DNA of 64,000 nucleotides from Mycobacterium branderi (lineage in GTDB: Bacteria; Actinomycetota; Actinomycetes; Mycobacteriales; Mycobacteriaceae): positions 2,294,001-2,358,000 of the forward strand of contig NZ_AP022606.1 of assembly GCF_010728725.1 (NCBI RefSeq). The letters are read 5' to 3'. The notes below the pieces were generated by a model that worked only from the letters and a program-made list of their open reading frames with translations, did no database searches and had not been told where the DNA came from. Shown here in pieces: positions 16,194-41,721 of this stretch (position 1 is the first letter of the stretch; every line of letters starts with the position of its first letter). Made by a program: the position numbers and the translations under genes.

Positions 16194-16208
16194 GAGAATA
16201 ACATTCTG
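16194..16208. promoter_or_regulatory. GAGAAT-type palindromic operator, leftward copy
   Basis: GAGAATAACATTCTG, matching the GAGAATnnnATTCTC consensus at 11 of 12 fixed positions. Read on the minus strand it contains TATTCT, a fit to the mycobacterial -10 pattern TAnnnT, which would start transcription about 155-160 nt upstream of the amidohydrolase gene at 16028. The binding protein is unknown. Confidence 0.6.
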
Positions 16209-16325
16209 GAACGGCCCTGCACAGCTGACCCATGTCGCGCGGCCTTACGGCAGCGAAGACGCGTAAGGCCAAGGCCCGGGCCCACAAGCCCTTTCACCGC
16301 TACTGAGATGGATACTTTCGCTAAC

Positions 16326-16340
16326 GAGAATGCTATTCTC
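16326..16340. promoter_or_regulatory. GAGAAT-type palindromic operator overlapping a leaderless-type promoter
   Basis: Perfect palindrome GAGAATGCTATTCTC ending 5 bp before the ATG at 16346. TATTCT (16334-16339) inside it fits a -10 box; 7 nt further is the A of the ATG, so the transcript would be leaderless. A protein bound here would cover the -10 box. The same element stands at 41707-41721. Confidence 0.68.
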
Positions 16341-16345
16341 GGACG

Positions 16346-17344
16346 ATGCTTCTAGAGTTCGACGCCGATCAGCGGCTGTGGCAGGAAACCGTGCGCGATG
16401 TCGTCGCCAAGCAATGCCCGCCGGCGCTGGTGCGCAGTGTCGCCGAGGACGGCGCCGACCCCGCCCCGGTGTGGAAGGTGTACGTCGATCTCGGCTGGAC
16501 CGAGCTGAACGATCCCGCCAGCGCGGTGGAGTTGGCCATCGTGACCGAGGAATTGGGCCGCGCCACGGACCCGACCCCCTACCTGGCGACGATGACCCAA
16601 TTCGCACCGCTGGTCGGCGATCGGTTCGACCCGCACGGATCCGGGACCGCCGTCTACAGCGGCGTGTCGGCGCGCCGCGATGGCGACGGCTGGGTGCTCG
16701 ACGGCACCGCGCGTCATGTCCTGGACGGGGACCGCGCCGATCGGCTGGCGGTGGTTACCGAAGCGGCGGTGTTCCTCGTCGACGCCGGCGACGTATCTGC
16801 CCGTCGCACTTCGGTATTCGATCCGGTGCTCCACGTCGCCGACGTGACCTTCGCCGGGGTTCGGGTGCCCGACACCGCCCGGCTCGGCGCCGACACCGAG
16901 CGCGCACGCCACGTCGCGCTGACCGGGATGGCGATGACGATGGTCGGCGCCTGCCAACGCATTCTCGACCTGGTTCTCGAACACGTAAGCAGCCGCCAGC
17001 AATTCGGCGTTCCGATCGGCTCGTTCCAGGCGGTCCAGCACAAGGCCGTCGATATGTACGTGGCGATCCAACGGGCCCGTGCGCTGGCGTATTTCGCCGC
17101 GCTGACGATCGCCGAAGACGACCCCCGCCGCCGCCTGGCGGCGGCGATGGCCAAGGCGGCGGCCGGCGAGTGCCAGTCGCTGGTGTTTCGCCACGGCCTG
17201 CAGCTGCACGGCGCGATGGGCTTCACGTGGGAGAACGATTTGCAATTCGCGCTCAAGCGGGCCAAGGCCGGCGAGCTGATGCTCGGCGGGGCCGCGGAGC
17301 ACCGGGCCATGATCGCCGAGGAATACCGTGCAACTCACCTTTGA
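16346..17344 (+). CDS. Acyl-CoA dehydrogenase, short subunit
   Basis: FAD-dependent acyl-CoA dehydrogenase-fold protein of 332 aa, shorter than the usual 380-400. The C-terminal four-helix bundle is clear (SSRQQFGVPIGSFQAVQHKAVDMYV, then QLHGAMGFTWENDLQ). The central beta domain is shortened and the classical signature (usually MTEPxAGSD) is absent. Short subunits of this kind form alpha2beta2 heterotetramers with a second ACAD in mycobacterial steroid side-chain oxidation (FadE28/FadE29-type precedent). The next gene overlaps it by 17 bp and supplies the signature, so the pair probably forms one enzyme. There is no SD sequence before the ATG; a palindromic operator lies in its place. Confidence 0.9.
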   Translation: MLLEFDADQRLWQETVRDVVAKQCPPALVRSVAEDGADPAPVWKVYVDLGWTELNDPASAVELAIVTEELGRATDPTPYLATMTQFAPLVGDRFDPHGSGTAVYSGVSARRDGDGWVLDGTARHVLDGDRADRLAVVTEAAVFLVDAGDVSARRTSVFDPVLHVADVTFAGVRVPDTARLGADTERARHVALTGMAMTMVGACQRILDLVLEHVSSRQQFGVPIGSFQAVQHKAVDMYVAIQRARALAYFAALTIAEDDPRRRLAAAMAKAAAGECQSLVFRHGLQLHGAMGFTWENDLQFALKRAKAGELMLGGAAEHRAMIAEEYRATHL

Positions 17345-18503
17345 TCCCGACGTCGAGGCGTTCCGCGCCGAGTTCGCCGCGTTCCTCGACGAGCACCTGC
17401 CCGCGGCAGCCGCTGAAGCATTGGAGCGGCCGCGGTCCGTGTCGCACATGCCGGCGTGGGCGCGACGCTGGCAGCGATTGCTGTTCGACAACGGTTGGTT
17501 GCTGCCGGGGCAGCCACCGGAGTTCGGCGGGCGCAACGCGACGGTGTTGCAGCAATTCGTTCACCTCGAGGAGCTGTGCCGGCGGCGGATCTACCACAGC
17601 TTCAACCCGCAGGGCGTGAATATCGTTGCGGCGTCGCTGCTCTCGTTCGGCAGCGACGAGCAGAAGCAGCGCTGGGCGGTGCCGATCCTGCGGGCCGAGA
17701 TCACAGCGTCGCTGGGCATGAGCGAGCCCAGCGCCGGCTCGGACCTGGCGTCGCTGCGCACGAGGGCGGTGCGTGACGGCGACGAGTTCGTCGTCAACGG
17801 GCAGAAAGTGTGGACATCGGGCGCGCATGACGCCGACGTGCTGTCGACCTTTGTGCGCACCGATCTCGACGCGCCAAAACACAAGGGCATCAGCGCATTA
17901 CTGATTCCCACCGATACGCCCGGGGTGGTGCGCCGGCCCTTCCCGTCGATCTGCTCGATCGACGACCTGGATTTCAACGAGGTGTTCTTCACCGATGTCC
18001 GGGTGCCCGCCGAGAACCTGGTCGGCCCGCTCAACCAGGGCTGGCGGGTGGCCAACGGGTCGCTCGGGCACGAACGCACGATGATGTGGCTGGGTTTCGC
18101 CGACCGGCTGGACAACCTGATCAGCGACTTTCATCCGCAAACCGAGCTGGAGCGCGACCAGTACGCCACCTTGGTGATGGACCACCAGGCGCTGCGGCTA
18201 CTCGGTTCGGCGGCGCTGGCGCGCGCCGCCCGCGGTGAACAAGACGTGTCGGCGGTGTCCGTGCTCAAGCTGCTCGGCTCGGAGGCGGAGCTCAAGGCAT
18301 CCGAGCATGCGCTGTCGGCCGCCGGCGCCGACGGTCTTGTCCACCCGGCACTCACGGGACCGTATGCGCCAATGAATCTCGACCACTACTTCGCCAGCTG
18401 GTTCGAGCGCTATGCCCGCAGCTTTTCCGGGACCATCGCCGGCGGCACGTCGGAGATCCAGCGCAACATCATCGCCCAACGAGTCCTCGGCCTGCCGCAT
18501 TAA
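17328..18503 (+). CDS. Acyl-CoA dehydrogenase, partner subunit
   Basis: ACAD of 391 aa with the conserved GMSEPSAGSDLASL stretch, VVNGQKVWTSGAH, LVGPLNQGWRVANGSLGHER and the C-terminal GGTSEIQRNIIAQRVLGLP. It starts with a GTG 17 bp inside the preceding short ACAD gene, so translation is coupled and a heterotetramer is likely. It would introduce an alpha,beta double bond in a CoA thioester, feeding hydration and then cleavage by the DUF35-thiolase of the divergent array. Natural substrate unknown; a bulky or branched side chain is the best guess from the family precedent. Confidence 0.92.
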   Translation: MQLTFDPDVEAFRAEFAAFLDEHLPAAAAEALERPRSVSHMPAWARRWQRLLFDNGWLLPGQPPEFGGRNATVLQQFVHLEELCRRRIYHSFNPQGVNIVAASLLSFGSDEQKQRWAVPILRAEITASLGMSEPSAGSDLASLRTRAVRDGDEFVVNGQKVWTSGAHDADVLSTFVRTDLDAPKHKGISALLIPTDTPGVVRRPFPSICSIDDLDFNEVFFTDVRVPAENLVGPLNQGWRVANGSLGHERTMMWLGFADRLDNLISDFHPQTELERDQYATLVMDHQALRLLGSAALARAARGEQDVSAVSVLKLLGSEAELKASEHALSAAGADGLVHPALTGPYAPMNLDHYFASWFERYARSFSGTIAGGTSEIQRNIIAQRVLGLPH

Positions 18504-18552
18504 GCAGTGAGTCCTTGCTCACCGGGGCGGACTCCACATGCGCCCACTGCTT
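18502..18552. terminator. Nested hairpin after acyl-CoA dehydrogenase pair
   Basis: Arms AAGCAGT (18502-18508) and ACTGCTT (18546-18552) enclose a second pair, GAGTCC and GGACTC. The hairpin begins within the stop codon of the dehydrogenase gene. No T-run follows, as is common in mycobacteria. Probable rho-independent or RNA-processing structure. Confidence 0.5.
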
Positions 18553-18748
18553 TCAGGCAGCACAATCACGTCGATCCCCTCGTCGTGACAAAGGTCAAGC
18601 AGGTGCGGATCAGACGTGGCGACGGCCGTACTGGCAGAACGAGCGACCTCGGCGACCACACAGTCGGCGAGACTGACCGCGCGGCGACTCCTGTGGTACT
18701 GGCGAGCACGGAGCAGCCCTGCTCGCATTGCGACCGTCGCATCCATCG
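18519..18748 (-). pseudogene. Remnant of PIN-domain (VapC-type) toxin, C-terminal part
   Basis: The reverse strand encodes about 75 residues ending RAVSLADCVVAEVARSAS...VATSDPHLLDLCHDEGIDVIVLPESSG. This is the C-terminal half of a PIN-domain RNase toxin: the SLADC Asp and TSDP Asp are typical acidic active-site positions. The N-terminal half with the first Asp is missing; upstream of about 18750 the reverse strand is instead the antisense of a thiolase fragment. No antitoxin gene is nearby. A truncated, non-functional relic is the best reading. Confidence 0.6.
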
Positions 18749-18759
18749 GGGGCGGGCAC

Positions 18760-19178
18760 CGGATATGACGACGTTCCCGGCCACGGTACGTGCCGCCAAG
18801 CGCGCGTTCGGCATGGCGGGCTTGACTCCTTCGGACGTGCACGTCGCTGAAGTCCACGACTACTTCACCGGGATCGAGCTGATCAGCTACGAAGACCTGG
18901 GATTCGCCGAACGATTCGGCGCGCACAAACTCGTCGAAGAAGAGGTGACTAGCGTTGGCGGCGCGTTACCGGTGAACCCCAGCGGCGGCCTGAAGTCGAA
19001 GGGGCATCCGCCCGGGGCCACCGGGGTGGCGCAGTGCGTGGAGCTCTTTCAGCAGCTGCGTGGCGAGGCGGTCAACCAGGTCGACGGCGCGCGAATTGGC
19101 TTGGCGCACAACATCGGCGGCCCGACGGCGGTTTCCGCCGTCACAATCCTGGAAGGACCTGGGGCCGATGGGGTTTAG
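18760..19178 (+). pseudogene. C-terminal remnant of thiolase / lipid-transfer (SCP-x-like) protein
   Basis: About 138 residues, from LTTFPATVRAAKRAF-like sequence to the stop at 19176-19178. They carry the thiolase C-terminal half: VHDYFTGIELISYEDLGF (HDCF-type motif), NPSGGLKSKGHPPGATG (catalytic His) and HNIGGPTA. A full enzyme has about 390 aa; the N-terminal 250 residues with the nucleophilic Cys are lost, and the break coincides with the PIN-toxin remnant. The stop overlaps the yrbEA start by 11 bp, suggesting that the intact gene was once the first member of the mce operon. Confidence 0.75.
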
Positions 19179-19980
19179 GGAGTCCATGGATCGCTGGTCG
19201 CCGGGTATCTCGGTGCCACGGAACTTCTCAGGGCCCATGCAGGCCGTCGGCGGCTTGTTCGCGATGTCGGCGGACGCGGTGAAGTTCGCGTTCCGCCGGC
19301 CGTTTTTCTGGCGGGAGTTCCTGGAGCAGTCCTGGTTTATCGCCCGGGTCTCATTGGCGCCAACGCTGTTGGTGGCAATTCCGTTCACCGTGCTGGTCAG
19401 CTTCACCCTCAACATCTTGTTGCGTGAGCTCGGCGCCGCTGACTTGTCCGGTGCCGGTGCCGCATTCGGTGCCGTCACCCAGGTCGGTCCGATCGTGACG
19501 GTGCTGATCGTGGCCGGCGCGGGCGCCACCGCCATATGTGCGGATTTGGGTTCGCGAACCATCCGCGAGGAGATCGACGCGATGGAGGTGTTGGGCATCA
19601 ACCCGGTGCAGCGGTTGGTGACCCCGCGCATGTTGGCCTCGGGGCTGGTGGCCCTGCTCCTGAACAGCCTGGTGGTGATTGTCGGCATCCTCGGTGGCTA
19701 CACATTCTCGGTGTTCGTCCAGGACGTCAATCCCGGGGCTTTCGCCGCGGGTATCACGTTGCTCACCGGGGTGCCCGAGGTGATCATTTCCTGTGTCAAG
19801 GCAATGCTTTTCGGCCTGATCGCGGGATTGGTAGCGTGCTATCGCGGCCTGATCATCAGCGGTGGTGGCGCCAAGGCAGTGGGCAACGCGGTCAACGAAA
19901 CCGTGGTGTACGCGTTCATGTCGCTGTTCGTGGTCAACGTGGTGGTCACGGCGATCGGCATCAAGATGACGGCGAAGTGA
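19168..19980 (+). CDS. yrbEA: YrbE-type ABC permease, first of mce operon
   Basis: Integral membrane permease of 270 aa (MlaE family) with about five hydrophobic segments. The conserved EEIDAMEVLGINPVQRLVTPR loop near the middle contacts the ATPase. It pairs with the next gene to form the membrane channel of an Mce lipid importer; the MceG-type ATPase is encoded elsewhere. The ATG at 19168 has GGAAGG 11 nt upstream; an alternative ATG at 19186 (MDRWSPG) follows AGGGAG and is equally possible. Which mce paralogue this is cannot be settled by eye. Confidence 0.95.
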   Translation: MGFRESMDRWSPGISVPRNFSGPMQAVGGLFAMSADAVKFAFRRPFFWREFLEQSWFIARVSLAPTLLVAIPFTVLVSFTLNILLRELGAADLSGAGAAFGAVTQVGPIVTVLIVAGAGATAICADLGSRTIREEIDAMEVLGINPVQRLVTPRMLASGLVALLLNSLVVIVGILGGYTFSVFVQDVNPGAFAAGITLLTGVPEVIISCVKAMLFGLIAGLVACYRGLIISGGGAKAVGNAVNETVVYAFMSLFVVNVVVTAIGIKMTAK

Positions 19981-19993
19981 GCGGGGGGATGGC

Positions 19994-20839
19994 ATGACTT
20001 TGCGAGCCGCCTACCCGCGGCTGTTCCGCCAATTGGAACGGCCGGTTGGGACGTTGGGGCGCATCGGAGACCACACCCTGTTTTACGGCAAGGCGCTCGC
20101 CGGGGCGCCCTTCGCGGCTGTGCACTACCGGCGGGAGGTCATTCGTCTCATCGCCGAGATCAGCATGGGTGCCGGCACGTTGGCGATGATCGGCGGCACG
20201 GTGGTGATCGTCGGATTCTTGACGCTGGCCGCCGGCGGCACACTGGCGGTGCAGGGCTACAGCTCGTTGGGCAACATCGGGATCGAGGCGTTGACCGGGT
20301 TCTTGGCGGCGTTCATCAACGTCCGGATCTCTGCGCCGGTGGTTGCCGGTATCGGTTTGGCCGCCACGTTCGGCGCCGGCGTCACCGCGCAACTGGGCGC
20401 GATGCGGATCAGCGAGGAAATCGACGCACTGGAAGCCATGGCGATCCGCCCGGTTTCCTATTTGGTAAGCACCCGGATCTTGGCTGGGTTGATCGCGATC
20501 ACCCCGTTGTATTCCATCGCGGTCATCTTGTCGTTTGTCGCAAGCCAATTCACCACGGTGTTCTTGTTCGGGCAGTCCGCTGGGCTCTACAATCACTACT
20601 TCAACACGTTCCTGAACCCGATCGACTTGCTGTGGTCATTCCTGCAGGCGGTGTTGATGGCATTGACGATCTTGTTGATCCATACGTACTTCGGCTATTT
20701 CGCCTCTGGCGGACCCTCGGGCGTCGGCGTGGCAGTGGGCAACGCGGTCCGCACGTCGCTGATCGTCGTTGTGTCGGTGACCCTGCTGGTCTCGCTGTCC
20801 ATTTACGGCTCCAACGGCAACTTCAATCTATCGGGCTAG
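19994..20839 (+). CDS. yrbEB: YrbE-type ABC permease, second of mce operon
   Basis: Second MlaE-family permease, 281 aa, with hydrophobic segments over most of its length and the coupling loop SEEIDALEAMAIRPVSYLVSTR. It lies 13 bp after yrbEA. Together the two YrbE proteins form the heterodimeric inner-membrane core that receives lipid from the Mce hexamer. The C-terminus SIYGSNGNFNLSG is hydrophilic, as usual for YrbEB. Confidence 0.95.
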   Translation: MTLRAAYPRLFRQLERPVGTLGRIGDHTLFYGKALAGAPFAAVHYRREVIRLIAEISMGAGTLAMIGGTVVIVGFLTLAAGGTLAVQGYSSLGNIGIEALTGFLAAFINVRISAPVVAGIGLAATFGAGVTAQLGAMRISEEIDALEAMAIRPVSYLVSTRILAGLIAITPLYSIAVILSFVASQFTTVFLFGQSAGLYNHYFNTFLNPIDLLWSFLQAVLMALTILLIHTYFGYFASGGPSGVGVAVGNAVRTSLIVVVSVTLLVSLSIYGSNGNFNLSG

Positions 20840-20849
20840 GGGAGGGGAC

Positions 20850-22127
20850 GTGACGCGCAACCTCGGGCCCGGCCCGATTCACCGGTCTGAAACCGCGAGC
20901 GCCGCAACGCCCGTGGCTGCCTCGCCAGGGCGCCACTTCGGCGCGCAGTCATACGCGCGTCCGCTGGCGGGCCTCGCGACCGTTGCGGTTGTCGTCGCGA
21001 TCTTCGCTCTGGCCGTGGGTTTGTTCCAGGGCAGTTTCACCGAAACCGTTCCGGTGACGGTGATCTCGCAACGCGCCGGTCTGGTCATGAATCCCGATGC
21101 GAAAGTCAAGATGCGCGGTGTGCAGGTGGGCAAGGTCGACTCGATCGAATCGCTGCCCAACGGCCAGGCCGCTCTTCACCTGGCGTTGGATCCTGGCCAA
21201 TTGCGTCTCATTCCTGCCAATGTCCTTGTCGACATCACATCCTCAACGGTGTTTGGTGCCAAGTTCGTCGACCTGGTTGCACCTGCCGAGCCATCGGCCC
21301 AGCGGCTACACCCGGGGCAGACGCTGGAAGGCAAACACGTGATGGTCGAAGTCAACACGGTATTCGAGCAATTGACAGCGCTGCTGTCGAAGATCGAACC
21401 GGAAAAGCTCAACGAGACCCTGGGCGCGTTGGCTTCGGCGTTCAACGGGCGAGGCACGAAAATCGGCCAGACGCTGAGTGATTTGGACGCGTTTCTCGCC
21501 AAGCTGGATTCGAGTCGCCCCGCATTAACCCATGACCTTGCGGTCGCACCAGAGGTACTCAACGCCTATGCTGATGCGGCGCCAAACCTGATCAAGACCG
21601 CGGACAGCGCCACCCGGATCAGCCGAACCATCGTCGACGAGCAAAACAATCTGGATTCACTACTGGTCAGCTCGATTGGGTTGGCCGACATCGGCAATCA
21701 GGTGTTGGGCGACAACCGCCAGCGGCTGACCGACGTCGTGCACCTGCTGTTGCCGACGACAGATGTCCTCAACCAGTATCACGAAGGACTGTGGTGCGGG
21801 ATCAAGGGTCTCTCGTACTGGTGGAAGAATCCGCCGTTCAAAGATCCGGGCATCACGCTGTTGATCGGCTTCGAATTCGGTGCGGAGCGTTACCGGTATC
21901 CGGGCGACCTGCCACGGGTGGCGGCCAAGGGCGGCCCGCAATGCACTGATCTTCCGGAGATGCCCTTCGAGGGGAAGGCTCCATCAATCGTCGCCGACAC
22001 CGGCTCCAACCCGTTCAAGTACGGAAACCAATTCCTGTTGTGGAACTCGGACCTCATCAAAGAGTGGCTGTTCGGGCCGCTTGACGGACCGCCTCGCAAT
22101 ACCGCACAGATCGGCCAGCCCGGATGA
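20850..22127 (+). CDS. mceA: MceA family cell-entry protein
   Basis: First Mce subunit, 425 aa. A basic, Ala-rich N-terminus is followed by one transmembrane anchor (about 36-60), then the Mce/MlaD beta domain (VISQRAGLVMNPDAKVKMRGVQVGKV) and a long helical region. The C-terminal domain includes two short Trp/Pro-rich stretches and Cys residues. The GTG start at 20850 follows a strong GGGAGGGG sequence. Mce subunits form a periplasmic hexameric tube that ferries lipids; the cargo of this paralogue is unknown. Confidence 0.95.
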   Translation: MTRNLGPGPIHRSETASAATPVAASPGRHFGAQSYARPLAGLATVAVVVAIFALAVGLFQGSFTETVPVTVISQRAGLVMNPDAKVKMRGVQVGKVDSIESLPNGQAALHLALDPGQLRLIPANVLVDITSSTVFGAKFVDLVAPAEPSAQRLHPGQTLEGKHVMVEVNTVFEQLTALLSKIEPEKLNETLGALASAFNGRGTKIGQTLSDLDAFLAKLDSSRPALTHDLAVAPEVLNAYADAAPNLIKTADSATRISRTIVDEQNNLDSLLVSSIGLADIGNQVLGDNRQRLTDVVHLLLPTTDVLNQYHEGLWCGIKGLSYWWKNPPFKDPGITLLIGFEFGAERYRYPGDLPRVAAKGGPQCTDLPEMPFEGKAPSIVADTGSNPFKYGNQFLLWNSDLIKEWLFGPLDGPPRNTAQIGQPG

Positions 22128-23158
22128 GCGCCTCAACGCGAGCGATGATCATCAAGTTCGGCATCTTCGCGATCATCATGGGGGTGCTGACCACCTTCCT
22201 GTTCTTCATCTTCGGCCAGTACCGAACTGGTTCGACGTCCGGGTATTCGGCCGTCTTCAATGACGTGTCACGCCTGAAGTCCGGAGACTCAGTGCGCGTC
22301 GCCGGTATCCGAGTCGGCACAGTCAATAGCGTCTCGCTACGGCCGGACAAAAAAGTCCTGGTGAAATTCGACGCCGACCGCACAGTGGTGCTCACTGACG
22401 GCACCAAGGCGGCGGTTCGGTATCTCAACCTGGTGGGCGATCGGTATCTGGAGCTACTCGATGGTCCGGGCTCGACGAAGCGATTGCCGGCAGGGACGCA
22501 GATTCCGGTCGACCGCACCGCGCCGGCGCTCGACCTCGATCTGCTGCTGGGCGGACTGAAGCCGGTGATCCGCGGTTTGAACGCGCAAGACGTGAATGCG
22601 CTCACGTCATCGCTCATTCAGGTCTTTCAAGGCCAGGGTGGGACTTTGGAGTCGCTATTGTCCAGAACGTCTTCGTTCACGAACGCGTTGGCGGACAACA
22701 AACAAGTGGTCCAGCAAGTGATCGACAATCTCAACGTCACGCTGGCCACGATCGACAAGGAAGGCGGCAAGTTCTCCGGCACAATCGACCGTCTCCAACG
22801 GCTCGTCGGCGAACTTGCGGCAGACCGAGATCCGATCGGCACCGCGATTGACTCTCTGGACAAGGGGACAGCGTCCCTGGCGGACTTGCTGACCAACGCA
22901 CGCCCGCCGTTACGCGACGACATAAATCAGTTGAACCGATTGGCGCCCTTGCTCGATGACCACAAGGACCAGATCGACGCCGGCTTGATCAAGGCGCCGC
23001 AAAACTACCGGAAACTGATCAGGGCCGGCTCATACATGAGCACCATCAACTGGTACCTCTGCGCGCTGAGCTGGCGGGTCACCGACATGCAGAACCGCAC
23101 CGTGGTTGCGCCGTGGATCAAGCAAGAAGGCGGGAGGTGCGCAGAACCCGATGCTTAA
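22124..23158 (+). CDS. mceB: MceB family protein
   Basis: Mce subunit of 344 aa. An N-terminal membrane anchor (about 8-31) is followed by the Mce domain (YSAVFNDVSRLKSGDSVRVAGIRVGTV) and a helical domain ending in LIRAGSYMSTINWYLCALSWRV. ATGA overlap with mceA at 22124-22127. It has no long C-terminal extension. It is expected to be one of six subunits of the hetero-hexameric tube. Confidence 0.95.
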   Translation: MSASTRAMIIKFGIFAIIMGVLTTFLFFIFGQYRTGSTSGYSAVFNDVSRLKSGDSVRVAGIRVGTVNSVSLRPDKKVLVKFDADRTVVLTDGTKAAVRYLNLVGDRYLELLDGPGSTKRLPAGTQIPVDRTAPALDLDLLLGGLKPVIRGLNAQDVNALTSSLIQVFQGQGGTLESLLSRTSSFTNALADNKQVVQQVIDNLNVTLATIDKEGGKFSGTIDRLQRLVGELAADRDPIGTAIDSLDKGTASLADLLTNARPPLRDDINQLNRLAPLLDDHKDQIDAGLIKAPQNYRKLIRAGSYMSTINWYLCALSWRVTDMQNRTVVAPWIKQEGGRCAEPDA

Positions 23159-24272
23159 ATACCGCGGTTCCCACCTGATAAAGGCGGGTTTCATCGGGGT
23201 CGTCCTGGTGATACTCGTCATCGCCGTGGGCCTGCAGCCGGAGCGGCTGTTGTCGTTGGCGAGCGCCGTGCGCTACCAGGCATTGTTTTCCGAAGCGGGC
23301 GGTCTGGCCGTGGGCAACGGCGTGATGGTATCGGGTATCAAGGTCGGTTCGGTATCGGATGTGTCGCTGCACCACGGGGATGCCCTGGTGACCTTCAGCC
23401 TCAACGGAAATATTCTGCTGGGTTCGGAGACCACCGCGCACATCCGAACCGGCACACTCCTCGGCGAGCGGGTGCTGACGCTGGAGTCGGCCGGCAGCGG
23501 TCGCTTGCATCCCATGGACGTCATCCCGACGACGCGTACATCCTCGCCATATTCACTGACCGACGCGGTGAGCGAACTGACCACCAACGCAGCCGGGACC
23601 GACACCGCCATGCTCAACCAATCGTTGGACACCCTGTCGAAAACGATCGACCAGATCGCACCACAATTGGGACCGACGTTCGACGGGCTGACCCGGTTGT
23701 CACAGACCATCAACAGCCGCAACGAGAATCTCAGCGAACTGCTCAAGGGCGCCAGTGATGTCACCGGAATCCTTTCGGAGCGCAGCCAACAGGTCAACAC
23801 GCTCATCCTCAACGCCAACGATCTCGTCGGCGTGCTGGTACGGCGCCGTCAGGCGATCGTCGATTTGCTGGCGAACACTTCCGTTGTCGCCAAGCAACTG
23901 ACCGGCCTGGTGCACGACAACGAAGCGAAGTTGGCGCCGACGTTGGACCGGCTGAATTCGGTACTAGGGGTCTTGGAGAAGAATCGGGACAACATCGCCA
24001 AAGCGCTGCCCGGGTTGGCGAAATACCAGATCACTCTTGGCGAGGCAGTGTCGAGCGGCTTCTACTATCAGGCGTTCGTCCCAAACATGTTGGTACTGCA
24101 GCTCCTTCAACCATTTATCGACTACCTGTGGGGCTTCCGCACCTTTGACACGGCACCCGGTCGAGGCCCTGGTTACCCGTCACCCATGCCACGGGCGCTG
24201 CTTCCCTGGCCGTACGCCGGTGTTCCGCCGTGCGACGGCTGCACACTGGGCGGAAGGATCGGAGGAGGATGA
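23151..24272 (+). CDS. mceC: MceC family protein
   Basis: Mce subunit of 373 aa from the ATG at 23151 (MLKYRGSHLIKAG), 8 bp inside the end of mceB; a longer frame from 23106 would overlap mceB by 53 bp and is rejected. N-terminal anchor at about 10-30, Mce domain YQALFSEAGGLAVGNGVMVSGIKVGSV, then coiled helices and a Pro/Gly-rich tail with a C-x-x-C pair (PCDGC) near the C-terminus. Confidence 0.94.
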   Translation: MLKYRGSHLIKAGFIGVVLVILVIAVGLQPERLLSLASAVRYQALFSEAGGLAVGNGVMVSGIKVGSVSDVSLHHGDALVTFSLNGNILLGSETTAHIRTGTLLGERVLTLESAGSGRLHPMDVIPTTRTSSPYSLTDAVSELTTNAAGTDTAMLNQSLDTLSKTIDQIAPQLGPTFDGLTRLSQTINSRNENLSELLKGASDVTGILSERSQQVNTLILNANDLVGVLVRRRQAIVDLLANTSVVAKQLTGLVHDNEAKLAPTLDRLNSVLGVLEKNRDNIAKALPGLAKYQITLGEAVSSGFYYQAFVPNMLVLQLLQPFIDYLWGFRTFDTAPGRGPGYPSPMPRALLPWPYAGVPPCDGCTLGGRIGGG

Positions 24273-25774
24273 TTCCGCGCAACAGGCTGGCAGCCGGGTT
24301 GGCGATTGCGCTGGCAGCGCTGATCGTTATCGGCGCGGGTTTGGTGGTCCGCCACACGTTCTTCCGCCCAAAGACGATTACCGCCTTTTTCACCACCGCT
24401 ACTGCGATCTACCCGGGCGATGAGGTGCGGGTCTCGGGTGTCAAGGTGGGCAATATCGCCTCCATCCAGCCGGTGGGCACTCAAGCCAAAATGACGCTCC
24501 ACGTGGACCGTGATGTGCCCATTCCAGCCGATGCCAAGGCGGTGATTGTGGCCCAGAATCTGGTCGCAGCGCGGTATGTCGAGCTCGCACCGGCTTACCG
24601 GACGAATGGCCCGACGATGCCCGACGGAGCGGTGATACCAGCAGATCGGACGGCTGTACCGGTCGAGTGGGATGAGGTGAAAACCCAACTGACACGGCTG
24701 GCAACAGATTTGGGGCCCAACAGTAAGGTCTCCACGCCGTCGGTGGCTCGGTTTATCGACAGCGCCGCCAACTCACTGGAGGGCAACGGAGACAAGCTGC
24801 GGCAGACACTCGCGCAACTGTCTGGTGTCGGACGAATCCTTGCCAACGGGAGCGGCAACATCGTCGACATCATCAAGAACTTGCAAACATTCGTCACGGC
24901 GCTGCGCGACAGCAATACCCAGATCGTTCAGTTCCAAGACCGGTTCGCCACGTTGACCAGCGTGCTCAACGAAAGCCGGTCCGATCTGGATGCGGCCCTG
25001 AAAGATCTGTCGGTGGCGGTGGGCGAGGTGCAGCGCTTCGTGGCAGGGACCCGCGACAAAACGAGCGAGCAGATCGCGCGGTTGGTCGACGTCACCCAAA
25101 ACCTTGTCGAGCACCGAACGGATGTCGAAAACATCCTGCACGTCGCGCCGAACGCGTTCGCCAACTTCTACAACATTTACAGCCCCGCTACCGGACTGAA
25201 CTATGGCGTTTTCGTGGTCAACCAGTTCTCGAACACGACGTTCTCGATTTGCACGTCCCTGGAGGCCATCGAAAACATCACGGCGTCGGAATCCGGGAAG
25301 CTGTGTGCCCAATATCTGGGGCCGGGCCTGCGACTGCTGAACTTCATCAATTATCTTCCCATTCCGACTAACCCGTGGATCGCGAAAGCGGCGGACCCGG
25401 AAGATGTCATCTACACCGACCCGGCCCTGATACCGTGTCATCCCCACATGGAGGCCTGCGAGGGCGGCCTGAACGGCACGACCCCTACGCCACCCGAAAT
25501 TCCGCCCACCGGATCGGCATACACCGGGCTGCCCGGCGACAACATTCCGAATTGGGGCCCGGGTGCCTTCTGGGCGCCGCCGCCGCCGTCGCCTCCGCGC
25601 GCCGTTTCGCTGCCGCCCGAGCCGCCTGCTGGAGGGCCGGCTCCGGTGGTCGGCGGGCCGGCTTCCGCTGCGGCTCCCGCGGCCCAGCCGGTCGCGCCCG
25701 GGCCGCCGCCTCCTGCGGCTGCACCTCCGACCGTGCCCGACATGCTGCTCCCCGCGGAAAGGCCAGGGTCATGA
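24269..25774 (+). CDS. mceD: MceD family protein with proline-rich tail
   Basis: Mce subunit of 501 aa. The ATG at 24269 follows GGAGGAGG closely and overlaps the mceC stop (ATGA). N-terminal anchor at about 7-27, Mce domain FFTTATAIYPGDEVRVSGVKVGNI, helical needle region, then from about residue 400 a Pro/Ala-rich extension (FWAPPPPSPPRAV and repeats) of roughly 100 residues to the C-terminus. Proline-rich ends of this kind are known in MceD and MceF proteins and may span the periplasm or contact cell wall components. Confidence 0.94.
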   Translation: MIPRNRLAAGLAIALAALIVIGAGLVVRHTFFRPKTITAFFTTATAIYPGDEVRVSGVKVGNIASIQPVGTQAKMTLHVDRDVPIPADAKAVIVAQNLVAARYVELAPAYRTNGPTMPDGAVIPADRTAVPVEWDEVKTQLTRLATDLGPNSKVSTPSVARFIDSAANSLEGNGDKLRQTLAQLSGVGRILANGSGNIVDIIKNLQTFVTALRDSNTQIVQFQDRFATLTSVLNESRSDLDAALKDLSVAVGEVQRFVAGTRDKTSEQIARLVDVTQNLVEHRTDVENILHVAPNAFANFYNIYSPATGLNYGVFVVNQFSNTTFSICTSLEAIENITASESGKLCAQYLGPGLRLLNFINYLPIPTNPWIAKAADPEDVIYTDPALIPCHPHMEACEGGLNGTTPTPPEIPPTGSAYTGLPGDNIPNWGPGAFWAPPPPSPPRAVSLPPEPPAGGPAPVVGGPASAAAPAAQPVAPGPPPPAAAPPTVPDMLLPAERPGS

Positions 25775-31370: not shown

Positions 31371-31380
31371 CCGCGCAGGG

Positions 31381-35463: not shown

Positions 35464-35497
35464 GGTTTTACGCGCCTCCTGCGTACGAGATCGACCA

Positions 35498-35512: not shown

Positions 35513-35592
35513 GCTTAGCATGGCGGTAATGTCGGGGTCAAGGCGCCGCTACGATCGGCGTGGTCGGCACGGTCGGAGGTTTGGAGCAACGA

Positions 35593-36204: not shown

Positions 36205-37321
36205 TCAGCGGGTCGTTGCTGCGCACCCCGCGGTAATAGCCCCAACCGACCACCATCGGCAGCAGTACCCGGTGGAACATCCATGCGGGGAAGCGGAGGG
36301 CGCTCCCGTTGGGGGTGAAGACCTCGAGCCCGTCGGGCAGTGGACCGAGCACCGAGCCCCATCGCTGTGCGGGAGGGCGGTAGTCGCGTAGCGCGCGTCC
36401 GGACAGTGCCGCCCGCACATTGCGGGCCAGCAACGCGTCGGCCCGGTTTCGGGCCGAGCTGCGAAGCGGGTCGGTTGCGGCGACGTCACCCAGCGCGAAT
36501 ACATCGGGATGGCCGGGAACACGCAAATCCGGTGTGACGCGGACGAAGCCATGCTCGTCGAGCACCTGGGCGGGCAGCCAGCCGGTGTTGGGCCGCACCC
36601 GGCCGATCGTCCACAGCACCGCGTCGGCGGACGCGGCCGGTTGGCCCGTGCGCCATTGCACGGGTTCGCGGGTGATTCGATCGCAACTGAAACCGTCCGG
36701 TATCACCGCGCGGTGACCGGGGTGCGTGTGCACGCCGAGCCCGTGCAGGCGGCGGGCGACGCGGTCCCAGGTGCGGGGGTGATGGTGGACGAGAGCGCGG
36801 TCCCCGGGGAAATACAGGTCTACGCGTTTAGCCGGCCAAGTGGTGGCAATCTGGGCCGCACTGCTCACCGCCGCGGCGCCGCCACCGATCACAATGACCG
36901 ATTCGGCGTCGGCGAGGACGTCATGCGCGGCGCACAGATCCGCACCGATCTCGGCCGCCGTCTGAAGACCGGGCTGGCGCCAGAAGCCATTCGTCACGCC
37001 GGTGGAGATCACCAGTGCGTCATAGTGTTCCGTCACTGCTGAGCCGTCGTCGCGACGCGCGAAAACTGTTCTGGCGCGGAGGTCTACTCCGGTAAGCACG
37101 GCGTGGACGGCTCGCACCCGCCCCAGGCCGCGGAATCGGTCGAAGGGGATCCAGTTCACGCGTGCCCACGCCTCGGGACGGGTGAGCCGCCAGCCGAGCT
37201 CCTGGCCGCTGAGCAATCCCGGTTTGGCCGAAATCCCGACGACGTCGGCGTGGCGAGCCAGCCGGATCGCCGCCAGCACACCGGTGTCGCCGAGCCCGGC
37301 GATCACGACCCGTGTACGCAC
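36086..37321 (-). CDS. FAD/NAD(P)-dependent oxidoreductase (NDH-2-like)
   Basis: Flavoprotein of 411 aa. The N-terminal FAD motif is VVIAGLGDTGV; the NAD motif is VIVIGGGAAAVSSAAQIA at about 140; the second FAD motif is HPDVFALGDVA at about 270. This is the pyridine nucleotide-disulfide / type II NADH dehydrogenase fold. The C-terminal 40 residues (after PLISARLW) are Arg/Pro-rich and lie inside the convergent TetR gene, perhaps because an ancestral stop was lost. The GTG start overlaps the upstream gene's stop by one base. A quinone or dye reductase role is possible. Confidence 0.87.
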   Translation of the reverse strand: MRTRVVIAGLGDTGVLAAIRLARHADVVGISAKPGLLSGQELGWRLTRPEAWARVNWIPFDRFRGLGRVRAVHAVLTGVDLRARTVFARRDDGSAVTEHYDALVISTGVTNGFWRQPGLQTAAEIGADLCAAHDVLADAESVIVIGGGAAAVSSAAQIATTWPAKRVDLYFPGDRALVHHHPRTWDRVARRLHGLGVHTHPGHRAVIPDGFSCDRITREPVQWRTGQPAASADAVLWTIGRVRPNTGWLPAQVLDEHGFVRVTPDLRVPGHPDVFALGDVAATDPLRSSARNRADALLARNVRAALSGRALRDYRPPAQRWGSVLGPLPDGLEVFTPNGSALRFPAWMFHRVLLPMVVGWGYYRGVRSNDPLISARLWQRSAAARPPDGADNARRTPRFRRGRPTSQAPAP

Positions 37322-37824
37322 TAATCCAGTTGCCAGTTCATGTTTTTAGCGAAGGTAAGCGCGTCGTGGGAGAGGGTGCCCAGGGCCTTGCAACGCTTGG
37401 TGTACTCGTGCACCATCGTCAGGAAGTTCATCGGGTTGTAGGCGTCTTCCTCGTAGCGCCACAGCCCGTCGCCGGCGTAGTGCAGCACGGTCAAGTTCGC
37501 GGCCTGATGGATGCTGCCATCGCCGGGATCCTTCATCCGGTTGAGGACCTTCATGATGACCCAGCCTCGGTCCTCGTCGATGATGTGCCACTCGGTGGGG
37601 TAGAACGGCATCTCGGAGCCGGGAAATGTGTTCATTGTCGAGGAGATCCAGGTGCGGATCTGTTCTCTGCCCTGCATTTTCCCGTACACGTGCTCCAGGT
37701 ACACGGCGTCCTCGGTGAACAGGTCGGCGTAGTGCGCCCAGTCCCAGTTCTGTCCTATCGCGACGACAGTCTGGCTGTAGTCCTTGAATGCGCGCTCGAT
37801 TTCGTCACGCGGCCACTGTCTCAT
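37321..37824 (-). CDS. SnoaL-like / NTF2-fold protein
   Basis: Protein of 167 aa with the alpha+beta cone pattern: an initial helix, WAHYADLFTEDAVYLEHVYGKMQGREQIRTWI, then antiparallel strands (WHIIDEDRGWVIMKVLNRM, ANLTVLHYAGDGLWRYEEDAYNP). Family members include ketosteroid isomerase, limonene epoxide hydrolase and polyketide cyclases. The reaction cannot be set. GGGAG precedes the ATG. It lies between the FAD oxidoreductase (1-bp overlap) and a TetR gene 17 bp upstream on the same strand. Confidence 0.85.
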   Translation of the reverse strand: MRQWPRDEIERAFKDYSQTVVAIGQNWDWAHYADLFTEDAVYLEHVYGKMQGREQIRTWISSTMNTFPGSEMPFYPTEWHIIDEDRGWVIMKVLNRMKDPGDGSIHQAANLTVLHYAGDGLWRYEEDAYNPMNFLTMVHEYTKRCKALGTLSHDALTFAKNMNWQLD

Positions 37825-37841
37825 CTAATTCTCCCGATCAG

Positions 37842-38438
37842 CTAACGCCAGCGTGGATTCATCACAGCCTGCAGCGCCTCGGACACCATCTCCAGAAGCG
37901 GCTTGTGATCGCCACTGGAGGAGCGCACCCATTGCTGGAATCCGAAATCGGCTGCGGCGAAGGCTAAGTGGACGAGCAACGCCGGTCGGGTGTCCTTTTC
38001 GGGATCGGTGCCCATGCGGGCGGCGGTGAGCTTCACCAGGCGGCTCTTGTCCTCGGGGGCGATGGTGATCTTCTCGAGCAGGCCGGGGGCGGCCAGGATG
38101 GCCGTGCGCCATTGTTCGGTGTCGTCGTCTTGGAAGGCGGCGGTGCGGGCTTCGATCGCGCGGGCCAGCGCGACGTCGGGCGGCTCTGCGCTGGGGCGCT
38201 CCTCGAGCAGCGACGCGATGACCTCCCACCCGCGCCGCACCTGGTGCAGCAGCAACTCTTCCTTGCTGGCGATGTGGCGGAAGAAGGTGCTCGGCGAAAC
38301 GCCTGCGGCGGCGGCGATCTGCTCGGTGGTGACGTTGTCGAACCCGTGCTCGGCGAACAGCCGGTAGGCCGCCAGCCGGATCTCGTCGCGGACCTGCGCA
38401 CGCTGGCGGTCCCGGAGCGATACAGGCTTGTCAGGCAA
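37842..38438 (-). CDS. TetR family regulator, last gene of reductase-SDR operon
   Basis: Regulator of 198 aa with helix-turn-helix GFDNVTTEQIAAAAGVSPSTFFRHIASKEELL near the N-terminus. The start is a TTG at 38436-38438, 8 bp inside the SDR stop region. Being the third gene behind the reductase and SDR, it probably represses its own operon through the palindrome at 40388-40402. Downstream SnoaL-like and FAD genes could be read from the same transcript. Confidence 0.88.
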   Translation of the reverse strand: MPDKPVSLRDRQRAQVRDEIRLAAYRLFAEHGFDNVTTEQIAAAAGVSPSTFFRHIASKEELLLHQVRRGWEVIASLLEERPSAEPPDVALARAIEARTAAFQDDDTEQWRTAILAAPGLLEKITIAPEDKSRLVKLTAARMGTDPEKDTRPALLVHLAFAAADFGFQQWVRSSSGDHKPLLEMVSEALQAVMNPRWR

Positions 38439-39243
38439 CGGGTTTGGTCTCCTGTAGCGGCGGCACGGGAATCGTGAAGGCCGGCGCGGTGGTACCGCCG
38501 TCGACCCGCAGGAACACGCCGGTGACCCATGACGACGCCGGTGAGGCCAGATACACCACGGCGGCGGCGATGTCGCGCGGTGTGCCGATGCGGCGCATGG
38601 GCGTGTTCTGCTCGAACTGTGCGCGCAGCGGTTCGTTGTTCATGACGAAGTCCATCGCCTGGGTGGCCGTCCCGCCGACGCCGATCGCATTGACCCGCAC
38701 TCGTGGTGCCAACTCGGCGGCCAGGTTGAACGTCATCATGTTCAGGGCGGCTTTCCCCGCCGCATAGGCGATCATGCCGGTCATCACCATGTCGCCGGAG
38801 CGCGACGAGATGTTGACGATGGATCCGGCTCCGCCGGTGTCGACCATGGCCTGCGCGGCGAGCCTCGACAGCACAAACGGTGCCGTGGCGTTGAAGTGCA
38901 GTGCGGTGGAGAAGTATTCGGACGAAGTGTGCATCGCCGGCAATGGGGCGGTGCCGCCTGCGTTGTTGACAAGGATGTCGAGCCGGCCGAACTGCGCCAC
39001 CGCGGCGTCGACCAGGTTCGTCAAGTCCTCTTCGACCATGACGTCGGTGACCACCGAAAGCCCGCTGCGGCCGGCCTTTTCGATCTCGCGCACGGTGTCG
39101 TCGAGGTCGGACTTGGTGCGCGCGGCCACCACCACGTCGGCTCCGGCCTCGGCCAGCGCCACAGCCGTGCCGCGGCCGATGCCGGCCCCGGCACCGGTGA
39201 CGATCGCGACCTGGTGGGTGAGCCGGAAGTCGTCGAGGATCAC
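38431..39243 (-). CDS. SDR family oxidoreductase
   Basis: Classical SDR of 270 aa. NAD(P) motif TGAGAGIG, NNAGG, ISSRS with the catalytic Ser and YAAGK with Tyr/Lys; the C-terminus has WVTGVFLRVDGG. The GTG start (39241-39243) overlaps the reductase stop in a GTGA arrangement, so the upstream open frame is not used. It probably oxidises or reduces a hydroxy- or keto-acyl compound in the same pathway as the DapB-like reductase. Confidence 0.92.
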   Translation of the reverse strand: MILDDFRLTHQVAIVTGAGAGIGRGTAVALAEAGADVVVAARTKSDLDDTVREIEKAGRSGLSVVTDVMVEEDLTNLVDAAVAQFGRLDILVNNAGGTAPLPAMHTSSEYFSTALHFNATAPFVLSRLAAQAMVDTGGAGSIVNISSRSGDMVMTGMIAYAAGKAALNMMTFNLAAELAPRVRVNAIGVGGTATQAMDFVMNNEPLRAQFEQNTPMRRIGTPRDIAAAVVYLASPASSWVTGVFLRVDGGTTAPAFTIPVPPLQETKPVA

Positions 39244-40328
39244 CGCACCGCCCCGGCGAGTTTGGGTGCGGGCCGCCCCGCGATCATCGGCAGATCGAGA
39301 TAGGTCTTGATGCCCGGCTCGGCAGCGCACGTCTGCGGGATCGCATGCACGCAATGGTTGGCGGTTGCCACCACCCCCGGGTTGCGTCGCAGGCCCTCCG
39401 CGATCGAATCCGGTTGCAGGCCTTTGACAACCACTTCCAGGTGGGGGTCGCCGTCGACCTCCAGTTCGAATCGTTCGCCGCGCTCGCCGAACGTCCAGGC
39501 CGGGTCCAGGTCCTGCTCGCCCATCAGCCAGTTGACCGCGGCGGTGATCACCGGCTCTCCGTCCACGAGCGCTTGCCAGCGGAAGCGCCGCGCGGCCACC
39601 CGGCCCGGCTCGATCTTGAGATAGCCGGCGTCGATCGGCGCGGCGGCCACCGCCACTTCCTGCGTCGAGGCGAATGTCGGATCGCGAAAGCCCAGATAGT
39701 CGGCCACCATCCACACCGAGGACTTGAAGCCGCCTTCCAACAGGGCGGCCATCGGGCCCTGAGCGGCCTCCTCTGGCGTGGCCCCGAAGCCCATGATGTG
39801 GTGCACCACGTCCGGGGCGTTGTACGTGCGGATGTCGGAGAACTCCTCGGCCCGCACATGTGTGATCGCCGTGGACAGTGCCGAGATCATCAGCGGGAAC
39901 TTCTCGGTGATGCCGCCGGGATGCAGACCCGAGCCGTGCAAGGTCACGCCGCCGTCGAGGCAGGCCTGCTCGATGGCCTGCACCCGCGCGTCGCGACGGT
40001 CGGGATACACCCAGCCCACCGGTGTCACAACGTTTTTCCCCGACCGCAGAATGGTTTTGACCTCGTCGTCGTCGGGAATCAGCGGCGCATACACCACGCA
40101 GTCGGCGGCCAGCGCCAGCACGTCATCCTTGTTGGAGTTGGCGACGACACCGAGCGGTTCTCGGCCGAGGATCTCGCCGACGTCGCGGCCGTTTTTCTCG
40201 GCGCTGTGTACCCAGCAGCCGGCCAGTTCCAGCTCGGGATGATTGAGCACCGCTTCGATGGCCGCTTTGCCAACTCCGCCGGTAGCCCACTGAATGACCT
40301 TGAGCCTCTTGGTGTTTGGTTCTGGCAC
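39240..40328 (-). CDS. NAD(P)H-dependent amine dehydrogenase / DapB-like reductase
   Basis: Protein of 362 aa. The N-terminus VIQWATGGVGKAAIEAVLNHPELELAGCWVHS is the dinucleotide fold of the dihydrodipicolinate-reductase N-domain family, followed by a substrate domain with LHGSGLHPGGITEKFPLM. Related mycobacterial proteins are numerous and mostly uncharacterised, often beside P450 and SDR genes. It is first of a leftward operon with SDR and TetR. It has its own promoter (40374-40403). Confidence 0.88.
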   Translation of the reverse strand: MPEPNTKRLKVIQWATGGVGKAAIEAVLNHPELELAGCWVHSAEKNGRDVGEILGREPLGVVANSNKDDVLALAADCVVYAPLIPDDDEVKTILRSGKNVVTPVGWVYPDRRDARVQAIEQACLDGGVTLHGSGLHPGGITEKFPLMISALSTAITHVRAEEFSDIRTYNAPDVVHHIMGFGATPEEAAQGPMAALLEGGFKSSVWMVADYLGFRDPTFASTQEVAVAAAPIDAGYLKIEPGRVAARRFRWQALVDGEPVITAAVNWLMGEQDLDPAWTFGERGERFELEVDGDPHLEVVVKGLQPDSIAEGLRRNPGVVATANHCVHAIPQTCAAEPGIKTYLDLPMIAGRPAPKLAGAVR

Positions 40329-40373
40329 GGCAGACCTTCCTCACGCGCAGCCAGGGCGGCGACGTTGCGAGGG

Positions 40374-40403
40374 AGCCTATGGCGATATGACAGTGACTGT
40401 CAA
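40374..40403 (-). promoter_or_regulatory. Promoter of DapB-like reductase operon
   Basis: On the minus strand a perfect -35 TTGACA (40403-40398) and a -10 TAGGCT (40379-40374, pattern TAnnnT) are separated by 18 bp. Transcription would start near 40367, about 39 nt before the ATG. The -35 box is partly covered by the palindrome at 40388-40402, fitting repression by the operon's own TetR. Confidence 0.6.
40388..40402. promoter_or_regulatory. Palindromic TetR-type operator
   Basis: TGACAGTGACTGTCA, a perfect 15-bp palindrome, 59 bp upstream of the reductase start. TetR regulators commonly bind such sites; the TetR at 37842-38438 in the same operon is the likely ligand. Confidence 0.68.
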
Positions 40404-40430
40404 GATGGCTGTGAGTGCCAGGTTGCCGGC

Positions 40431-40847
40431 TCACCAGTGACGTATCGAGCAGAGCACACCCTTGGGGCCGTCCTTGGATGCGACGACGACGCCGTCCACT
40501 GCCAGATCGCAGTGAAACTGCGGTGTGGCTCCCGATAGCCCGCTGCTGGCGGTTACCCAAGCCCACTGATCGGGGTTGGCCAACATGAGTTCGAATACCC
40601 ACGGCTTGCCCGGGCCGACATCGGCCTTGATGTTTGGGGACCACTCGTACGGGTTGTGACTCCAGGCGGCAAAATGCGGCGGCTCGTTGTCAAGGTAGTA
40701 AATGTCTGCGCGGGTCGGGCTTGCAGCGGTGACGGTGTACCTCACGCGATGCATCACGGGATCGTCGTCCGCGCCCGCCGGTGCGGCGACGCTGGTGGCT
40801 GCCACTAAGGCCGCCGAGACCGCGAGTGCCCGACCGATGGTTGTCAC
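40431..40847 (-). CDS. Small exported MmpS-like protein
   Basis: Protein of 138 aa starting at the GTG 40845-40847, which overlaps the enoyl-CoA hydratase stop (GTGA). A signal peptide (TIGRALAVSAALVAATSVAAPAGADDD) precedes a beta-rich domain with VRYTVTAASPTRADIYYLDNEP, a Trp-rich middle and a C-terminal C...VDGVVVASKDGPKGVLC pair likely forming a disulfide. This matches the MmpS-type / transport accessory fold in outline. No mmpL gene is beside it. The function is unknown. Confidence 0.78.
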   Translation of the reverse strand: MTTIGRALAVSAALVAATSVAAPAGADDDPVMHRVRYTVTAASPTRADIYYLDNEPPHFAAWSHNPYEWSPNIKADVGPGKPWVFELMLANPDQWAWVTASSGLSGATPQFHCDLAVDGVVVASKDGPKGVLCSIRHW

Positions 40848-41584
40848 GTCGCACCTCCTGCACGGGAGTTGTTGCCGCGGTTCATCACTCGATCGGCGGC
40901 CCGCCAGTGGTCGTCGCTCACCCACAGCCGCGCGAAAGCCTGCACCGCTTCGTCAGCCGTAACGCCGCCCACCACACGCTTGATCTCACCGGCCGGGCGG
41001 CTGGCCAACGTGCGCGCGATCATTCGCCAATCATCGTCGAAGCTGGACCGCGGCAACACCCGATCGACCAATCCGATGCGTTCCGCCTCGGCGGCGTCGA
41101 GCACCGTCCCGGTTCCCGCCAGCAGCAGGGCACGGCTCTTGCCGACGAGTGCGGCCAGCCTTTCCGCGCCGCCCCAGGCCGGCATGATCTCCAGCGTCAC
41201 CTGGTTGAAGCCGATCTTGATGTCGTCGGCGGCCAGCCGGATGTCGGCGGCGACGGCCACCTCGGCACCCCCGCCCAGCGCGTGACCGTTGAGCGCGGCG
41301 ATCACCGGCGCCGGGAAACCGGCCAGCCGCTCGCAGATCGACCGCATCCGCCACGCCATTGCCGCCGCGTCGTCTTCGGTCCTGATCGCGCTGAGCTCTT
41401 TGAGGTCGCCGCCGGAGACGAACGCGCGGTCGCCGGCGCCGGTGATGGCCAGCGCACGTGCGCCCTCGGCCGCGTCGATCGCCTTGTCCAACTGGTCCAT
41501 GGTGTCCAGGGAGATGGCGTTGCGCGCGTGCGGGCGGTCGATGGTGAGCACCGCAAGGCCGTCGTCGAACTCCAGGTCGACCAT
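40844..41584 (-). CDS. Enoyl-CoA hydratase/isomerase family protein
   Basis: Crotonase-fold protein of 246 aa. Oxyanion-hole segments are AFVSGGDLKEL and NGHALGGGAEVA; the second acidic region reads VTLEIMPAWGGAERL. The canonical first Glu is conserved as AE in GGGAEVA; the second position holds Glu in TLEI. The start is the ATG 41582-41584 with GGAG 9 nt upstream; an ATG at 41614 sits inside the inverted repeat with the SD too close and is rejected. It probably hydrates an enoyl-CoA made by the FadD operon on the other strand. Confidence 0.9.
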   Translation of the reverse strand: MVDLEFDDGLAVLTIDRPHARNAISLDTMDQLDKAIDAAEGARALAITGAGDRAFVSGGDLKELSAIRTEDDAAAMAWRMRSICERLAGFPAPVIAALNGHALGGGAEVAVAADIRLAADDIKIGFNQVTLEIMPAWGGAERLAALVGKSRALLLAGTGTVLDAAEAERIGLVDRVLPRSSFDDDWRMIARTLASRPAGEIKRVVGGVTADEAVQAFARLWVSDDHWRAADRVMNRGNNSRAGGAT

Positions 41585-41612
41585 ACGCGGCGCTCCATCG
41601 TGCGATATTGGC

Positions 41613-41640
41613 ATTCTCCTTAGCGGAGAATAGCATCGCC
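41613..41640. promoter_or_regulatory. Inverted repeat and degenerate GAGAAT-type site before enoyl-CoA hydratase
   Basis: ATTCTCC-TTAGC-GGAGAAT (41613-41631) is a perfect 7-bp inverted repeat. Overlapping it, GAGAATAGCATCGCC (41626-41640) keeps 8 of 12 fixed positions of GAGAATnnnATTCTC, and on the minus strand it contains TATTCT (41632-41627), a possible -10 for the hydratase gene with a start near 41620. Confidence 0.5.
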
Positions 41641-41706
41641 GTGGTGCTGACAAGGCGTCGATCCCGGGCCGGCTGCTGCATCGGGGCATTGCGGTAGCCT
41701 CTGAGG

Positions 41707-41721
41707 GAGAATAGTATTCTC
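41707..41721. promoter_or_regulatory. GAGAAT-type palindromic operator before amidohydrolase-FadD operon
   Basis: Perfect palindrome GAGAATAGTATTCTC. TATTCT (41715-41720) fits a -10 box and predicts a start near 41727, ahead of the SD AGGAGGA (about 41733) and the ATG at 41744. Same element as at 16326-16340. Confidence 0.7.

Follow-up and report, generated by a model that had tools for sequence, protein, structure and literature searches.

What is the role of a 15-bp palindrome that stands ahead of catabolic genes at two loci 25 kb apart? The question is raised by a stretch of 64,000 nucleotides of Mycobacterium branderi (contig NZ_AP022606.1, here C1, positions 2,294,001 to 2,358,000; below, the window), in which an earlier note had taken the element GAGAATNNNATTCTC, with a -10 box inside it, for the mark of a regulon. 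Our answer, drawn from sequence comparison, is that a regulator controlling genes of lipid uptake and breakdown very probably binds at GAGAATNNNATTCTC. We are highly confident that it serves as the operator of a TetR-family repressor, P0001, encoded 18 kb to the left of the window, which would block some ten further promoters beyond its own and that of the divergent gene. What the sequence shows is the site itself, its conservation, its linkage to the regulator gene and its co-occurrence with it; binding, repression, operon extents, ligand and substrate are inferred. The putative operators of the window are as follows.

16326..16340, plus strand: perfect operator GAGAATGCTATTCTC, ahead of an acyl-CoA dehydrogenase pair and Mce genes
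16305..16319, plus strand: weak copy GAGATGGATACTTTC resembling the operator, 21 bp ahead of the 16326 site, 8 of 12 bases matching
16194..16208, minus strand: operator of the divergent amidohydrolase operon, one mismatch
41707..41721, plus strand: perfect operator GAGAATAGTATTCTC, ahead of an amidohydrolase-FadD operon
41604..41618 and 41626..41640, minus strand: two degenerate copies, 22 bp apart, with two and three mismatches, before an enoyl-CoA hydratase
58132..58146, plus strand: weak asymmetric operator GAGAATGGGATTTCC, two mismatches

Where the earlier note had placed sites (16194, 16326, 41626, 41707 and 58132), their positions and quality are as it had given them, and TATTCT is found in the directions that it had claimed.

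By base composition alone, about 0.05 perfect copies of the palindrome would be expected in the 5.98 Mb genome. Seven are present, beginning on C1 at 1717624, 2217839, 2276081, 2283035, 2310326 (window 16326), 2335707 (window 41707) and 2503595, and all seven lie at promoter distance from a called gene. Five of them fall inside 118 kb, a clustering that random placement gives 2 times in 200,000. The copy at 1717624, situated 18 bp before a phosphotransferase-like gene, overlaps a weak antisense open reading frame (ORF) call too. With up to two mismatches, 66 places are found genome-wide against 4 for the backwards pattern, which is a rough control. Chance frequency and positions inside genes, which the earlier note had named as fatal to its proposal, are not found for the perfect copies, apart from the overlap at 1717624; among the two-mismatch copies, three of the six checked (L010-L015) lie inside called genes, so that the loose motif is not diagnostic by itself. 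Within the window, matches with up to three mismatches are hardly enriched (16, against 10.4 ± 3.35 in shuffles, of which 7 in 100 gave 16 or more), and a three-mismatch copy such as that at 41626 therefore says little from sequence alone.

The candidate regulator P0001 has 240 residues (C1:2275303-2276025, minus strand), with a single TetR_N stretch forming an N-terminal TetR helix-turn-helix in an all-helical fold. The idea that the regulator may be encoded elsewhere than in the window has in this way found a concrete candidate. A perfect palindrome (2276081-2276095) precedes its gene, below tetR, and is common to a divergent acyl-CoA dehydrogenase gene, while a one-mismatch copy comes after tetR, ahead of a P450. 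A conserved palindrome is thus present both in the regulator's own promoter and in the target promoters, as autoregulation would require. A perfect palindrome stands ahead of tetR in 79 of 80 named orthologue loci, which are the best 80 of 415 relatives; in the remaining one, that of Mycobacterium tilburgii (L104), the copy at this place is degraded, with three mismatches. The distance from palindrome to tetR is 48-64 bp, being 56 bp in 59 of the 80 loci. A homologue search with P0001 gave generic TetR/AcrR names among the best 120 of 4432 matches, and a sequence search of the PDB gave distant TetRs only (best E 4.4e-8). In the model of the protein, residues 31-66 form a long basic N-terminal helix preceding the usual TetR domain, which might add DNA contacts.

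The sites of the window are conserved over 30 loci (own included). For the 16326 site there are 28 perfect copies and one with a single mismatch, the miss being a second copy in G018; for the 41707 site, at 21-23 bp from the ATG, there are 28 perfect copies and two with a single mismatch. The proposal that a shared element joins the two loci in one regulon is supported. The 16194 site tracks the divergent amidohydrolase, as a copy with up to three mismatches occurs in 12 of the 12 loci in which an amidohydrolase starts upstream of the 16326-type site, and within 500 bp in none of the 18 others; at L194 the amidohydrolase is 1.1 kb away and the operator is near that gene. The weak copy at 58132 belongs to the set, as had been supposed, since the pattern GAGAAY-N3-NTTTCC recurs at this position in 29 of the 30 loci, before OB-fold/thiolase genes.

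58185..58628, plus strand: OB-fold (ChsH2-type) protein, starting 38 bp past the weak operator and followed by a thiolase

The view of 58132 as a chance copy was dropped once this OB-fold gene, and not the ORF at 58271, served as the anchor. That ORF (58271-59767) overlaps the OB-fold gene in another frame, and its start is probably called about 117 codons too early, many homologue matches starting near residue 115.

Regulator and palindrome also occur together across genomes. Of the 148 genomes searched within the genus, 121 gave a tetR match (E < 1e-80) and 122 have a perfect palindrome; both are present in 119 and neither in 24, with tetR only in 2 and the palindrome only in 3 (Fisher p = 3e-22, uncorrected for relatedness). 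Three further tetR matches of this search are weak or partial. As to the palindrome-only genomes, fragments of tetR lie on two contigs of G070, one of them beside a palindrome; in G147 a contig with the same neighbour genes stops 80 bp past the palindrome, so that tetR presumably lies in the assembly gap; and G044 has a single palindrome copy, inside a gene. The tetR-only genomes are G089, whose coordinates match the M. tilburgii locus, and G056, which has a one-mismatch copy before tetR and in which the dehydrogenase and the amidohydrolase of the window were not found. In sets of 60 genomes the dehydrogenase was found in 48 and the amidohydrolase in 49; of the 12 that gave no dehydrogenase, 10 are those lacking tetR and the other two are G026 and G056.

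From an order-wide search, 23 further tetR loci were examined, whose upstream site is perfect in 16, has one mismatch in 4 and two mismatches in 1, and is missing in 2, these two having 31 and 35% identity. Three of the one-mismatch sites, at about 78% tetR identity, read GAGAAC-N3-ATTCTC. Operator and regulator drift together in these comparisons. In the distant genomes G034 and G101, nine of the ten perfect sites examined (17 in total) lie near an orthologue of a gene from the regions studied here. Two tetR copies with 76-80% identity are carried by G016, G022, G069, G073, G086, G101, G129 and G323; in G101 and G323 the copies differ in the quality of their own operator, which offers a natural test of operator divergence.

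How the palindrome is built into each promoter can be read from its three-base spacer. Mycobacterial -10 elements have the form TANNNT, and transcripts starting at the start codon are common, being found for 26% of the M. tuberculosis genes with a primary start site (PMC3898074). The putative promoter elements of the two perfect sites are the following.

16334..16339, plus strand: -10 TATTCT, inside the operator
41689..41694, plus strand: TTGCGG, -35-like, 17 bp before TAGTAT
41712..41717, plus strand: -10 TAGTAT (TANNAT register), inside the operator; alternative TATTCT at 41715-41720

Sites of the 16326 type all have T at spacer position 3 (29 of 29), and the G that 28 of them have at position 1 excludes TANNAT; TATTCT, the -10 that the earlier note had proposed, fits this promoter. 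Six nucleotides separate it from the ATG at 16346, so that a leaderless mRNA is expected, whereas in 27 of the 30 loci (all save the own one, L177 and L205) the start lies 27-45 nt past the site, mostly with a sequence resembling a ribosome-binding site. Judged in this way, the promoter looks leaderless in the own genome and in L177 and leadered in most relatives, the same operator being kept in both arrangements. The proposal does not hold in general, given that at 41707 position 1 is A in 30 of 30 sites and position 3 is T in only 15 of 30, which favours TANNAT; of the TTGCGG in front of it, the first T is strongly and the other bases are moderately conserved. The conserved A could alternatively serve a TATTCT on the opposite strand. 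The tetR site has A-N-T as spacer in 78 of 79 cases, which would allow -10s on both strands. Towards the dehydrogenase, TTGTAA precedes TANNAT by 17 bp; towards tetR, a TACAAT is found 13 nt downstream. In the class of sites between tetR and the following P450/SDR gene, the spacer bases are unconstrained (T at position 3 in 8 of 40), and a TAATAT directly adjoins the palindrome. On this spacer conservation by promoter class, we reject TATTCT as a universal -10; the abutting TAATAT and the downstream TACAAT likewise lead us to reject a -10 inside the palindrome at every promoter.

With TANNNT motifs inside the palindrome at several promoters, one might see in it a promoter element or the box of an alternative sigma factor, that is, a symmetric -10, instead of a repressor operator. 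We find this very hard to believe, because the outer bases are constant while those of the spacer vary by promoter and in one class are free, and because the site is absent where one particular TetR gene is absent. A somewhat better case, although still an improbable one, can be made for another regulator binding the palindrome, with P0001 merely as one of its targets. TetR_N matches in the genome number at least 150, with 150 of 253 candidates scored, and one TetR gene (L019:3940-4575, equal to C1:1713939-1714574, minus strand) belongs to a gene run beginning at the perfect site at 1717624 and composed of phosphotransferase-like, SDR, acyl-CoA dehydrogenase and TetR genes. This second TetR is, however, present in only 58 of 146 genomes and was not found in several that have seven or more sites, a distribution on which we reject it as the general regulator; it is perhaps a downstream one. 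A regulator inside the window is rejected as well, since none of the three TetR genes found there has the element within two mismatches in its own promoter, in agreement with the earlier note.

Assignment of the operator to P0001 also has to face several points that weigh against it or limit its reach. The genus searches scored only the best 19-21 first-look candidates per genome (19 for tetR). Relatedness inflates the co-occurrence, and regulator and pathway could be lost together. One of the two tetR copies of G101 has only a two-mismatch site, and outside the genus a close orthologue was found in only one of the genomes sampled across the order (G167, 76% identity, with a perfect site). Activation in place of repression could still be at work. 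Finally, the 41626 site is not generally conserved: the copy exists as the earlier note had described it, and a similar outward-facing pair was found in 1 of 27 relatives (L234). We think the chances are even that function is confined to the strong and the conserved weak sites and that the degenerate 41626 copy is fortuitous. The rarity of the 41604/41626 pair and the near-chance frequency of three-mismatch copies speak for this, and against it stands the presence of two copies upstream of the enoyl-CoA hydratase gene at 22 bp from each other, the same spacing as in other promoters.

Paired operators are suggested by a weaker copy that several promoters have at 21-22 bp from the strong site. 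At the tetR promoter, where this pairing was noticed after the fact, it is the degenerate GAAAGTTACAATCTC, at a distance of 22 bp. Summed over five promoter classes, the spacing of 21/22 ranks first of 45, and it does so also without the tetR and amidohydrolase classes, the signal of the latter overlapping in part the ribosome-binding site; taken class by class, it comes first in two and second in three.

In the mechanism that we propose, a P0001 dimer would bind the palindrome, overlapping or beside the -10 region, and would thereby keep RNA polymerase from transcribing its own gene and the divergent acyl-CoA dehydrogenase gene, and from using roughly ten other promoters. A second dimer could bind two helical turns away, at the weaker copy 21-22 bp off, in several promoters. 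Under this control would come acyl-CoA dehydrogenases, amidohydrolases, FadD ligases, thiolase/OB-fold pairs, P450s, a Rieske-type oxygenase, a ferredoxin reductase and Mce import, and perhaps the enoyl-CoA hydratase. The ligand that releases P0001 is probably an acyl-CoA intermediate of the pathway, by analogy with regulators such as MftR. The genes that adjoin the sites are acyl-CoA dehydrogenases, Amidohydro_2 proteins, FadD-type ligases, a PaaE-like ferredoxin reductase, a P450, a carboxymuconolactone-decarboxylase-like gene near a Rieske-type oxygenase and a dehydrogenase with a DAP_DH_C domain, a set that fits the degradation of a cyclic lipid. A candidate regulator and its DNA element can be named for a large set of catabolic and Mce-import genes in most of the searched genomes of the genus. 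The operator is also a handle on the pathway, for whatever relieves repression should point to the substrate.

The system works like KstR and KstR2 but is neither, having another operator and another regulator. KstR (Rv3574) is an autoregulated mycobacterial TetR repressor with a palindrome in its own promoter that overlaps the putative -10, and with lipid-breakdown targets, as here; its operator is TnnAACnnGTTnnA (PMC1995591) in place of GAGAATNNNATTCTC. KstR structures are among the fold neighbours of P0001, which scores 22.4 bits with the KstR model NF033703 (cut-off 280) and is not a KstR by this measure. KstR2, also a TetR regulator, governs a clustered catabolic regulon with divergent promoters, through the operator AnCAAGnnCTTGnT in three motifs near its gene (PMC3068626), as opposed to the seven perfect GAGAATNNNATTCTC sites found here, two of them distant. 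MftR, a mycobacterial TetR repressor with long-chain acyl-CoA effectors, offers a model for the ligand; its operator, T-N2-GGCA-N5-TGCC-N2-A (PMC8728441), is not matched by the present sites, and the MftR model is not among the six NCBIfam matches of P0001. One of the window's TetR proteins (37842-38438) does have an MftR-type C-terminal domain (PF17754), with 85 bits for the MftR model (cut-off 225). Mce3R is a TetR-like repressor, linked to mce genes by the titles of PMC11667970 and PMC2277422; it has a double TetR motif and, judging by a title, a non-palindromic site, where P0001 has one TetR domain.

The exact operator strings had no match in the open-access literature, supplements being outside this scope, so that an earlier description is possible. 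Among the titles listed, none names a GAGAAT/ATTCTC TetR regulator in Mycobacterium. By title, the open-access literature gave nothing on a mycobacterial TetR regulon with acyl-CoA dehydrogenase, amidohydrolase and mce genes, and it had no match for a P450/Rieske/amidohydrolase cluster of M. marinum; GAGAAT does not occur in the main text of PMC4301838. We tentatively suggest, at somewhat less than an even chance, that this is an undescribed mycobacterial TetR with paired operators, in which the three-base spacer would set the register and strand of the embedded -10 (TATTCT or TANNAT), the 15-bp element being both operator and promoter core of a regulon for cyclic-lipid uptake and degradation.

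The genes next to the sites at the two loci of the window are these.

14940..16028, minus strand: amidohydrolase (Amidohydro_2), first gene of the leftward run
16346..17344, plus strand: acyl-CoA dehydrogenase, first gene past the 16326 operator
17328..18503, plus strand: second acyl-CoA dehydrogenase of the pair
19060..25774, plus strand: two MlaE-type permeases and four Mce proteins (MlaD, Mce4_CUP1 domains)
40844..41584, minus strand: enoyl-CoA hydratase, with its start at 41584 as in the earlier note
41744..42934, plus strand: amidohydrolase (Amidohydro_2)
42196..44358, plus strand: ORF with a FadD3-family acyl-CoA ligase

The FadD3-family match begins at residue 249, which places the true start of the ligase further inside the ORF. 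From 16326 the same strand continues into the MlaE/Mce genes, so that import is probably under the same control; judging from the spacing, these genes are probably in one transcription unit with the dehydrogenase pair, and same-strand ORFs run on past them to 28793. The Rieske gene that the earlier note had placed in the window was not seen among the window ORFs tested, which are not all of them, and the Rieske-type gene found lies outside the window. The leftward run appears to be an operon and comprises the amidohydrolase, an alpha/beta hydrolase, a NuoF-like protein, a thiolase-like protein, dehydrogenases and a P450. Its NuoF-like protein (10830-12362), lying among amidohydrolase genes, scores under the curated cut-off for a true NuoF. 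Between the dehydrogenase pair and the Mce genes, the ORF at 18507-19178 matches the C-terminal thiolase domain only and is possibly a truncated gene.

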